This document shows positions 10,982 to 64,000 of a DNA stretch of 64,000 bases, piece by piece (position 1 is the first letter of the stretch; each line of letters starts with the position of its first letter). Both the position numbers and the translations under genes were made by a program. This DNA comes from a virus. The DNA is taken from IMG/VR virus record IMGVR_UViG_3300037963_006186, positions 1 to 64,000 of that record, one strand, 5' to 3'. The notes under the pieces were generated by a model, which ran no database searches, had not been told where the DNA came from, and saw only the letters and a program-made list of their open reading frames with translations.

Positions 10982-11203
10982 TTGGCTCGTAACTATAAAG
11001 CAGAGTATGAAAACTACCATAGTAAGCCTGAACAAAAGAAAAGACGCGCAGGCAGGAATACTGCACGACGAATCATGACAATGTTAAAGCGTGTCAAAAA
11101 GGGTGACGGTAAAGATGTCCACCACAAAGATGGCAATCCCAGAAACAATTCAACAAAAAACCTACGGGTTGAAAGTCAGAAAAAAAATCGTTCTAGAAAG
11201 TAA
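10982..11203 (+). CDS. Small HNH protein with TTG start, 73 aa
   Basis: The strong SD GGAGGG (10972-10977) points to TTG 10982, not to the in-frame TTG 10964 that overlaps the recT stop. Protein reads ARNYKAEYENYHSKPEQKKR and later VHHKDGNPRNNSTKNLRV (about residues 45-63), the minimal HNH motif (His-His-x-Asp-Gly-Asn, Asn, Asn-Leu). It is very basic and far shorter than homing endonucleases of this family, so it could be a recombination-associated nicking nuclease rather than a selfish element. No insertion scar is seen around it. Confidence 0.75.
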   Translation: MARNYKAEYENYHSKPEQKKRRAGRNTARRIMTMLKRVKKGDGKDVHHKDGNPRNNSTKNLRVESQKKNRSRK

Positions 11204-43472: not shown

Positions 43473-44525
43473 TTAGAAAGTTTCCAAGTCGAATGCTACA
43501 CCGCTTGAACCAAGGTGCTTGGCGATCAACTGACCACGGCACCGAAGCTTAGCAGCACGAACATCGTACTCACCCGACACAGTCTCGAAGTCCGAGAGGT
43601 CGAAGTAGCCCTTTGGATCCCAAAGAGTGTAGATGTCGTTCATGTTCAAGAAGTAGAAGCTAATGGGGTCTCCACTTGTTGTTCCACCACTGTTTGGCAT
43701 GTTGAACTCAACGTTGATTGGCACACCGTCGAACATTTCAACCATGCGTCCACCATCAATTTGAGATTGGTCCACATAGCGCTCGTGAGCCTGAAGAGCA
43801 CGCTTCAAGTTCTTGAATCCAGCGCGAGACGCAAGAATCACGTTAGGCGGGCCAGAAGGTGAAACAGCGTTGATTTCAACCTTAAGGTCGTAAAGACCAG
43901 CAAGGCCGTTGGAGTTGAAAGATGCTGAACCATCGAAGGCTTGGTTTTGCCAACCAGTCTTTGTCAGGTAGTCACCCTTATCAACACCACCAACTGCGTT
44001 GACCTGTGTTCCTGCTGCGCCGATTTCAAGGAATCCTTGGTGGTCCCCTGTAGTGACATCAGCACCATTCAAGGTATTCCAGTCTTCCCAGCCAGTTTGG
44101 CCACCAGCAACGATTTGCTTGACGAACTCACGCTTCATGGCGTTAGCGGTCATCATGACGCGGCTTTCAAGGATTGAAAGAACAGCAGCATCACCCTGGT
44201 TGACCATTTCTTCTTCAGAGGAAATAGCGACGGGGCGAACAACGTGACCAAAATCGTATTGTGCAGGCACGAACACGTCTTCGACACTCAGGTCGATGCG
44301 CTCAAAACCGGTTTGCATACGAGTTGTGGAAGAGTGCTCTCCAAAGCCAAGAGGAACTACAATACGGGATCCACCAGACTGAACTGGTTTACCGGCACCG
44401 TGAATGCGCTCTTGAGCATCGAGGAAGGCCACTGATTCGTGAACGTTGTCACGAAAGTCCTTCATCAGGATATGCATGGTGGTGGAAAGCAATTCGTTTC
44501 CAATAGTAAGTTGTGTAGTTGCCAT
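43473..44525 (-). CDS. Major capsid protein, 350 aa
   Basis: Strong SD TAGGAGCC before ATG 44525. Starts MATTQLTIGNELLSTTMHIL, with the N-terminal arm (MKDFRDNVHESVAFLDAQER), a beta/alpha core (QSGGSRIVVPLGFGEHSSTT) and the P-domain phrases VFVPAQYDFGHVVRPVAISS and MMTANAMKREFVKQIVAGGQ, in line with phage major capsid proteins of the HK97 fold used by some podoviruses. Order scaffold, capsid, then terminator and decoration. The C-terminus has YDVRAAKLRCRGQLIAKHLG, a typical phrase in this group. Confidence 0.82.
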   Translation of the reverse strand: MATTQLTIGNELLSTTMHILMKDFRDNVHESVAFLDAQERIHGAGKPVQSGGSRIVVPLGFGEHSSTTRMQTGFERIDLSVEDVFVPAQYDFGHVVRPVAISSEEEMVNQGDAAVLSILESRVMMTANAMKREFVKQIVAGGQTGWEDWNTLNGADVTTGDHQGFLEIGAAGTQVNAVGGVDKGDYLTKTGWQNQAFDGSASFNSNGLAGLYDLKVEINAVSPSGPPNVILASRAGFKNLKRALQAHERYVDQSQIDGGRMVEMFDGVPINVEFNMPNSGGTTSGDPISFYFLNMNDIYTLWDPKGYFDLSDFETVSGEYDVRAAKLRCRGQLIAKHLGSSGVAFDLETF

Positions 44526-61091: not shown

Positions 61092-61625
61092 TCACCAGGG
61101 TACGTCATGAAGGAAACCATCCTCCTCACGAGTAAAATGGGCCAACGCAGACGCTGTTCTTCGCGTTGCCGAGTCCCACCAGCCCTCTAATGGCTCTGGT
61201 TGCGCAGGACGCATGCGTAAACACAGCCTCGGACCACGATCACGCTCTGCATAGAAGTCCTGTATCGTTACCTTGACCGCTAATGAGTCATCTCGCAAAA
61301 CGCCTGCCATGACCAGCGCATCCAACGCACATTTACAAATGTTGTCTGCATCTGGCTTAGATCGCTTCCAAATCACGTGATCTGGGTCTTTTCGGCGCAA
61401 TAATCGCTTCGGACGGTGCGAAAATGCCGCTATTTCGACCTCAACAGGCTCATCAAGTGGCGCTTTTCGCCAAACACTGGTCATCACCATCGCTGCAGAA
61501 CGCTCCCAATCTGCAGTCTTTTTCGGCGTATATAGCCTGACTTTGCCGCCAATCGACGCCCCTCTCGGACGACCCTTGCCTATCGGATCGCCAGGAACTT
61601 CTACCATGTATAGCCACTCACTCAT
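61092..61625 (-). CDS. rusA: RusA-type Holliday junction resolvase, 177 aa
   Basis: Cuts four-way junctions left by recombination and replication. ATG 61625 overlaps the preceding gene by 8 bases. N-terminal VPGDPIGKGRPRG and the catalytic acidic cluster KPDADNICKCALDALVMAGV (about residue 85-105; Asp-x-Asp-Asn) followed by LRDDSLAVKVTIQDFY are the RusA signature. Length is above the 120-aa norm because of a C-terminal extension with Trp-rich ends (EGWWDSATRR). Only resolvase seen, matching the RecT/YqaJ system. Confidence 0.85.
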   Translation of the reverse strand: MSEWLYMVEVPGDPIGKGRPRGASIGGKVRLYTPKKTADWERSAAMVMTSVWRKAPLDEPVEVEIAAFSHRPKRLLRRKDPDHVIWKRSKPDADNICKCALDALVMAGVLRDDSLAVKVTIQDFYAERDRGPRLCLRMRPAQPEPLEGWWDSATRRTASALAHFTREEDGFLHDVPW

Positions 61626-61932
61626 ATTCCGCCTCGTGCCACTCAAGCAGATGGCTTCTTAGCTTATCGATAGACGGAACGTTCTCCATCTCTTCACAAG
61701 CCATATATATTTCATCAATAACTACAAATAACGCCCTTATTAGCTGCCTCTTATTTAAGTTAGACTCCAATTCATAAAGCGCCCACGGTATGTCCAGCCT
61801 CGATGGTATTTGCTTGCACCAATGAGGAACTGCTCTCCATTCGTCGCCATAGGTGGCCTTGTCTGCAAGCCAAGCATGCCACTCTTTGATCATGACCCTC
61901 AAGTTTCTCGAAACGAACGCATGATCAAGCAT
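61618..61932 (-). CDS. Hypothetical late-strand protein, 104 aa
   Basis: Not recognised. ATG 61932 overlaps the upstream stop (TAATG). Helical, Trp-rich: MLDHAFVSRNLRVMIKEWHA then WRAVPHWCKQIPSRLDIPWA. Ends HLLEWHEAEYE. Acidic; sits between the 321-aa gene and the resolvase and may be a partner of either. Confidence 0.6.
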   Translation of the reverse strand: MLDHAFVSRNLRVMIKEWHAWLADKATYGDEWRAVPHWCKQIPSRLDIPWALYELESNLNKRQLIRALFVVIDEIYMACEEMENVPSIDKLRSHLLEWHEAEYE

Positions 61933-62897: not shown

Positions 62898-62914
62898 TTA
62901 TACCTCGGACAGCG

Positions 62915-62943
62915 AGTCTATGTCAGCGAAAGGTCTCAGTCAA
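62915..62943 (-). promoter_or_regulatory. Putative late-strand promoter
   Basis: On the - strand TTGACT (62943-62938), 17-base spacer, TAGACT (62920-62915, four of six). Start near 62908 gives a short leader before ATG 62897 with GAGG SD. Leading promoter of the resolvase unit. Confidence 0.45.
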
Positions 62944-63640
62944 CAGCCGATTATCGCTATTTGTCGCAAAATCCAGGGGGGCAATCGTGGCCGCCAAAAA
63001 AAACAAAAAAAACGAAACGAACCAGGGGGGGCATCAGTCGACGAAAAAACGCGAAAAAAAGACGCACCACACCACCCCCCCCACCGGGGGTCATCGAAAC
63101 GGCGCCAAAAAACAACCACCACCACCGGGGGCATGCGTTCAGCTATGGCTCAAAGCGTCACACGTCACACCCCCCACGATTGAACCAGCGACAAACGCGG
63201 GCGATGATAGTTTTCGATACAGCCGCAACCGTGGCCACTGCTGAACTAACAACAGAGGAAACCACAGGGGGGACACTCGAAACAAAAGAACGAAAAGAGC
63301 AAAGAGCGGAAACCGCCACGGCGCAAACTTCACAAGGTGAAGAAACAGGCGAAGCCGGCCCAGCATTTACAGGGGGGCGCTCGATTGAATCGGACACCAC
63401 CACAACACGGGGGGCACCGGGAACTCTCAACGCTTGAGCTTTGCTCCAAGATATGAAGCGGCCCGAAACAGTACACCGCGCCCGTTGACGGGGGGCGTCT
63501 GCTGATAGGCTGGAGAATGCAAGCGTTGCTGTCATACCTGGAAAACTAAGCACACGTATATAAGGGGCAATAGGTAAAGCTTAAAAAAGCCATAAACGAA
63601 AAAAGTTTATTTTTTTTTGTTCGTCGATATTCAAGCTTCA
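62944..63640. other. Non-coding region with recurrent G6-7 runs
   Basis: No convincing gene. Runs of six or seven G on the + strand at 62976, 63025, 63267, 63372, 63409 and 63490 are mostly followed by C, with a shorter G5 run at 63127. C-runs are at 63075-63082 and 63160-63165, the former forming CCCCC-ACC-GGGGG. Flanks are A/C-rich low complexity. An ORF at 62961-63437 is low-complexity Lys/Thr and unlikely to be real. The segment separates the late promoter from the right-edge hairpin block and may hold an origin or packaging signal. Confidence 0.45.
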
Positions 63641-63714
63641 AAGCGGGTTTTCGCAAAATGAAGAAAAGTAATTTCAATCTTTCTTTGTTTACCCCACTTG
63701 TCATACCTGACACC

Positions 63715-64000
63715 GTGCCAAGATTCAAAATGTCGGCGGAAACACCGGCACAGAGAAAAGCGCCAGCCACCCCAGCGGAACCGTAGAAGGTGGCCAAAAT
63801 CTCACCCGCTCTTTTAAATCTCCATAAGAATAGACAGGCAACCCGGAAACGGGTGGACCCTGACAAGCGGCGCGGGAAAGATGAACCCCGCGCAATCGGC
63901 CACCGCTGAAATGCAGCAAGCGCAAAGTAGGAGAGACGCTCCCCACCGGGGGGCGCCATCCGAAACGGACTGACAACCCGGAGCCCCCAAACCTTAAGGA
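63715..64000. ncRNA. Structured RNA candidate at right edge, incomplete
   Basis: A chain of hairpins: GTGCC/GGCAC (63715-63751), GCCACC/GGTGGC (63766-63794), ACCCG-GAAA-CGGGT (63841-63854), GCGCGGG/CCCGCGC (63870-63893), GCTG/CAGC (63905-63917), CGCTCCCC-ACC-GGGGGGCG (63937-63955) and TCCG-AAA-CGGA (63959-63969). No coding capacity. No class of ribozyme or riboswitch was matched. The sequence reaches the window end at 64000, so the element may be cut. Strand assigned unclear; + is arbitrary. Confidence 0.5.

Follow-up and report, generated by a model that had tools for sequence, protein, structure and literature searches.

At its right-hand edge, the phage DNA analyzed here carries the 5' part of a large structured RNA, and we hold it probable, though well short of certain, that this RNA belongs to a new family of large phage noncoding RNAs, made by antiterminated transcription, separated from the downstream mRNA, and acting in trans. 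As far as comparison of sequences can show such things, the RNA has a conserved fold, a fixed place in the genome, a boxA-like element at its start and, in relatives of this phage, hammerhead cores at its end.

A structured RNA at the edge of the window

The window, bases 1-64000 of a 65,381-base IMG/VR virus record (G000 in the comparisons), ends inside the RNA. The sequence beyond 64000 can be read from the record, and in its coordinates the core RNA, bounded by homology with relatives, runs from boxA at 63808 to ~64377, a length of ~570 nt, about two-thirds of which falls outside the window (Table 1). A leader hairpin from 63731 and an extra structured element at 64453-64525 of the record lie outside the core. 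An initial extent of 63700-64860 (z -4.7) was dropped in favor of these bounds, which follow boxA and the 3' elements of the relatives, and a second RNA considered at 62900-63553 was rejected, this stretch being mostly a minus-strand protein gene.

Table 1. Features of the RNA locus; positions beyond 64000 are those of the full virus record
Feature	Position	Strand	Remarks
Small protein gene (MTATLAFSSLSADAPRQRARC...)	63158..63538	-	left neighbor, limits the noncoding region
Leader hairpin TGTCGG-CGGAAACA-CCGGCA, 6 bp	63731..63750	+	upstream of boxA
5' part of large structured RNA	63808..64000	+	fold conservation z -6.8 with L064 (two sequences), -7.5 with L064 and L068 (three sequences)
boxA-like antitermination element GCTCTTTTAAATC	63808..63820	+	common to all classes
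Long-range closing stem, 5' strand AATAGACAGG	63829..63838	+	partner CCTGTCTATT at 64155-64164 of the record
Hairpin ACCCG-GAAA-CGGGT	63841-63854	+	seen in sequence
Long-range helix, 5' strand	63864..63870	+	pairs with 64054-64060, 7 bp
Hairpin GCGCGGG-AAAGATGAAC-CCCGCGC, 7 bp	63870..63893	+	found in L064 too
Helix, 5' strand	63893..63899	+	pairs with 64043-64049, 7 bp, identical in L064
ACC-loop hairpin	63935..63956	+	8-bp stem at 63938-63956; retained in L064 with a longer loop
Hairpin	63959-63969	+	seen in sequence
Motif A	~64286-64377 (beyond window)	+	conserved 3' element
Motif B	64453-64525 (beyond window)	+	covarying hairpin after motif A

A sequence-only reading of this DNA had proposed an undescribed structured RNA at 63715-64000, formed of hairpins that include a GAAA loop and an 8-bp stem with an ACC loop, and continuing past 64000. 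The hairpins are there, 64000 is merely the edge of the window, and the RNA itself is now supported by its conserved position, by conserved and covarying helices in relatives, and by the lack of a counterpart in Rfam. That reading did not include the boxA leader, the ribozyme of the relatives or the portion of the RNA outside the window.

The RNA sits in the gap between two divergent gene blocks of a tailed phage. To its left lies a minus-strand block encoding RusA (61092-61646), a 107-aa protein, a 321-aa protein and a small protein whose N-terminal 45 aa are 60-76% identical in ten relatives, where its gene stands beside the same RNA. The next conserved ORF on the rightward side starts near 65.3 kb, and the ~1.77 kb in between holds no gene common to the relatives. 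The proposed lack of coding capacity is correct for 63539-65306, with the small conserved gene adjoining on the left. The plus strand is A-rich and poor in U (0.12).

Several other features of the surrounding DNA were observed. Between 62970 and 63500, inside and next to the small minus-strand gene, the plus strand has many runs of five to seven G, often followed by C. The sequence AAGGGGGG immediately precedes the start codon of the small gene in L061, L063 and L064, while TGTCATACCTG occurs twice in the window, at 63529-63545, at the start codon of that gene, and at 63698-63714, just upstream of the RNA leader. The latter copy is in inverted form, as TGTCATACCTGACA. Similar sequence is present in L061, L063, L064 and L068, and the repeat is possibly an operator. 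Beyond the window, GAACGCC-N3-TATCGCG at record positions 64728-64744 (L002 4729) recurs in L062, L063 and L083, and could belong to a short reading frame or serve as a DNA site; the surrounding patch, 64717-64765, resembled an RNA hairpin, but its variation across several phages is also compatible with a short reading frame. Upstream of the rightward gene, a patch containing GGTTCAGGACAGTTAGGACATTC at 65009-65192 of the record is conserved in L061 and L063 (70-74% identity), and might be a promoter, an operator or an origin.

Conservation of the fold in related phages

A single sequence is not sufficient as proof of structure here, because the stability of the 63715-64000 piece is unremarkable: folded alone it gives z -1.4, and 7 of 100 shuffles are as stable. 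The core RNA is only mildly better than its shuffles (z -1.8). Proof has to come from relatives. With the capsid protein (43473-44525, minus strand) as query, we identified 49 related loci in IMG/VR. When the RNA was compared by BLASTN with 43 of these records, seven yielded a match. In six of them the match falls where expected, ~20 kb from the capsid gene and on the strand opposite to it; the remaining one (G033, E 0.003) covers only initial bases of the query, falls outside the RNA and was judged to be chance. The flanks in relatives encode the same neighbors, namely the 321-aa and 107-aa proteins, RusA and two more. Searches with RusA and the small protein added L083, L205 and L206, and reading the same place in other phages added L066-L067 and L069-L073; the 321-aa protein as sole query for close relatives found none.

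Altogether, a large RNA occupies the same place in 15 related records and in G000, with L066 closely resembling L067, and L070 closely resembling L071. The sequences fall into at least five classes: class I (G000, L064 and L068), class II (L061, L063 and L065), class III (L062, L083 and L066/L067) and class IV (L071/L070, L073 and L069), with L205/L206 outside these four. Between classes almost nothing can be aligned by sequence except boxA and the two elements that we call motif A and motif B. A low U content (0.11-0.15) is found in all 12 of 12 RNAs.

The fold was tested in classes I-IV, L205/L206 being left out, by shuffling alignment columns and folding with RNAalifold, with only two to four sequences available per class. 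Alongside the class I values in Table 1, z-scores were -3.9 for class II, -7.7 for class III, and -6.2 and -4.9 for class IV. Reverse strands gave -2.4 to -4.9, and the plus strand was the stronger in every set tested. The covarying helices that the sequence-only reading had suggested looking for in relatives do exist: the comparison with L064, which is 76% identical to G000 over ~565 nt, contains 14 double compensatory changes versus 5.4 +/- 1.6 after shuffling. Class II contains 21 versus 4.0, and the pair L071 and L069 has 28 versus 17.4 +/- 3.5. Two sets, the class III pair and class IV with three sequences, rest on energy, because their excess of double changes is small or within noise. 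At the level of individual helices, the stem that closes the main domain covaries, reading ATAGACGGG/CCCGTCTAT in L064, AATGGACAGG/CCTGTCCATT in L068 and CATGGATAG/CTATCCATG in L071, and the helix that begins at 63864 differs from that of L064 by two double and one single compensatory change.

These comparisons bear directly on two explanations in which there is no functional RNA. That the hairpins arose by chance in a GC-rich spacer would fit the 7% of shuffles that fold as well as the 63715-64000 piece, and is refuted by a fold conserved in four classes together with the covariation of motif B described below; we give this idea virtually no credence. Nor do we see much prospect for an element that acts as DNA, for instance an origin of replication or a packaging site, and has hairpins only incidentally. 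A gap between divergent gene blocks is a usual place for origins, and three phages share conserved patches at 65009-65192 of the record, but compensatory changes, the favored plus strand, the U-poor composition, boxA and the adjacent ribozyme all speak for RNA, which leaves a DNA element very improbable.

The RNA matched no known family in the Rfam covariance search, which included GOLLD and ROOL, and BLASTN against phage and plasmid records returned no match to it. With the small protein as query, no relative turned up in a bacterial genome, and cultured phages offer only remote relatives of the capsid protein (21-25% identity). For these reasons the host remains unidentified, and with it the host's boxA consensus is unavailable.

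A boxA-like element and leader

The 13-nt boxA-like element lies ~10-130 nt ahead of the main domain, with variants GTTCTTTGACATC, GCTCTTTGACATC and GCTCTTTCAAATC in other phages. Scored with a matrix derived from the other classes only, it ranks first among the sites within 400 nt in 12 of 12 RNAs, and its score is reached by 0 to 7 of 300 shuffles. Positions 63808-63818 fit 10 of the 11 positions of the rRNA operon consensus GYTCTTTAANA (PMC5725501), and GYTCTTTNANATC occurs just once in the whole window, at 63808 (0.12 expected). The copies of L064 and class IV are weaker, and L205 and L206 have two each. In L061, L063, L064, L066, L205 and L206, boxA follows a hairpin that is similar to this leader hairpin and has GGGAAACACCCC-like sequence. 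No clear sigma-70 promoter was seen 5' of the RNA.

In E. coli rRNA operons, the leader presents a boxB hairpin, then boxA, then a leader-trailer helix around the 16S RNA (PMC10250234). By analogy, and as an inference only, the phage RNA resembles such a boxB-boxA-boxC leader in its layout, with a hairpin, boxA and a long-range stem enclosing a structured RNA (PMC5725501, PMC10250234). It differs in that the enclosed RNA is not rRNA, and Nus factor binding is only inferred.

A further possibility is that the RNA acts as a decoy, binding the Nus factor complex of the host (NusB/S10/SuhB) and lowering rRNA transcription. In its favor, boxA is the only 13-nt element conserved across all classes, and is doubled in L205 and L206; yet a decoy requires neither a single boxA per 570 nt nor a large conserved body downstream, and we rate its chances as very slim.

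The 3' end: hammerheads in relatives, motif A in this phage

A type III hammerhead core forms the end of the RNA in seven distinct relatives (L062, L083, L066, L067, L071/L070, L073 and L069), as in this example from L062: AATCGTC^CGGTGC-TGATGCT-GCACCG-CTGATGA-G-GGCCC-ACAGCA-GGGCC-GAAAC-GATT. A motif scan with core, UH cleavage site and all three stems as requirements was passed by L062, L066, L067, L070, L073 and L083, and by L092 at another junction, with no matches in 7.1 Mb of shuffled sequence. L069 has the core and narrowly fails, with a stem III of only 3 bp. The Rfam Hammerhead_3 model gave E 0.0094 for L198 (the L073 locus) and E 0.15 for L203 (the L069 locus), both below gathering. 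Hammerhead activity is only inferred, because 1-24 extra nucleotides separate the core and stem II in all of these hammerheads except that of L092. In L071 and L073 the next gene starts immediately after the hammerhead, and in L062 motif B does. Elsewhere in L062, at 11104-11148, a second hammerhead core lies directly upstream of another gene, and the L092 hammerhead, at a gene junction, has a fully standard core. No hammerhead was found in the window or L002 when the core CUGANGA/GAAA with three stems was sought.

Phage hammerheads between or flanking genes were reported in 2011 (PMC3088659). Those of the seven relatives agree with the type III examples in having a CUGANGA...GAAA core, stems I-III and a UH cleavage site, here at the 3' end of the RNA; they differ in the insert between core and stem II and in bounding a large structured RNA, and the phage studied here has none. 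We found no paper linking a phage hammerhead to a large structured RNA.

In classes I and II, which lack a hammerhead, motif A stands at the 3' end instead. It comprises a CGTG-loop hairpin, then CGC-CC-CGGYGA-GCG and, after a spacer that varies, TCRCCGCC followed by a T-rich tail. A single compensatory exchange, seen in both classes, occurs in the stem CGGYGA/TCRCCG. Additional CGC/GCG pairing would make motif A a pseudoknot (CGC-CC-CGGYGA-GCG-N-UCRCCG), which remains a proposal because that pairing is invariant. Searching motif A against Rfam with permissive settings gave only chance-level matches to unrelated families and no known ribozyme family, and a pattern scan of IMG/VR returned 32 stretches, of which just five, none of them new, carry the RNA. 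The data do not decide whether motif A is a processing site, a terminator-like end (a T-run after a C spacer) or a ribozyme. That it is an undescribed self-cleaving RNA, such that one RNA family swapped its ribozyme, is a distinctly doubtful idea at present.

Motif B is present in 12 of 28 relatives scanned, once per genome, and missing from L065, L205, L206 and L092. In its alignment 91.7% of cells pair, and there are 21 double changes versus 6.8 in shuffles; the model having been built on the same sequences, the test lies in the slid and shuffled controls and not in E-values. In L068 and L073 motif B is separated by a few tens of nucleotides from the start of a gene, so it may belong functionally to the mRNA that follows and not to the RNA.

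The 3' elements also bear on whether the RNA is merely a cis-acting leader, one that modifies RNA polymerase or controls the early operon downstream by nut- or put-like antitermination or riboregulation, the free RNA having no function. The RNA does head the rightward gene block and begin with boxA, and in some relatives motif B and the hammerheads lie close upstream of genes. In seven relatives, however, a hammerhead separates the RNA from the downstream gene or element, and a conserved, multi-branched domain of 500-800 nt far exceeds the known nut or put sites, which are much smaller. We cannot dismiss a cis-acting leader, though we consider it unlikely.

Discussion

We return to a noncoding RNA that functions in trans, with the caveat that transcription, antitermination, cleavage and action in trans are all inferred, there being no transcript data. 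In the model that we propose, an RNA with a core of ~570 nt would be transcribed rightwards from the gap between the divergent gene blocks. The host NusB/S10 complex would bind boxA and keep RNA polymerase from stopping within the long untranslated RNA, as it does for rRNA. The 3' element would then be the point at which the RNA and the downstream mRNA part, through self-cleavage where a hammerhead is present and, in the phage studied here, by another route at motif A. Once freed, it might act in trans as a structural or regulatory RNA in infection, comparable to GOLLD and ROOL.

GOLLD, a large RNA of phages and prophages that exceeds 800 nt in many members, is likewise a large, ornate phage noncoding RNA with conserved and variable regions (PMC12286853). 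The RNA described here is set apart from it by the lack of an Rfam match, the boxA leader, the hammerhead 3' end in relatives and a 3' element that varies by class. With ROOL it shares being a large phage-encoded RNA of unknown function, and differs in having neither an Rfam match nor sequence likeness, and in its context. Homo-oligomeric cages are a further feature of GOLLD and ROOL. Both often lie close to tRNA islands, which does not hold here: no tRNA genes were found in the window, in L002 or in 11 of the 12 relatives' loci. The sole tRNA in those loci is a predicted tRNA-Thr (TGT) on the minus strand of L063 (4455-4533), ~3.5 kb from the RNA; a tRNA-like match in L061 (E 0.086) was not confirmed by ARAGORN. 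Processing of phage RNA by small ribozymes has a parallel in the theta ribozymes that process tRNAs in gut phages, which have an HDV-like fold and a tRNA substrate (PMC10879173).

If the model is correct, the phage RNA would on paper combine an rRNA-style transcript with a product of the GOLLD/ROOL type, while belonging to neither family by the tests made. To our knowledge, the function of large phage RNAs such as GOLLD and ROOL is not known, and such families are few. The hammerhead of the relatives offers a testable 3' end, and motif A is a candidate for a new processing element. A further large phage RNA with an rRNA-style antitermination leader would point to a way in which phages produce a long untranslated RNA despite Rho, and a 3' end defined by a ribozyme, as in the relatives, would suggest how such an RNA is freed from a polycistronic transcript.
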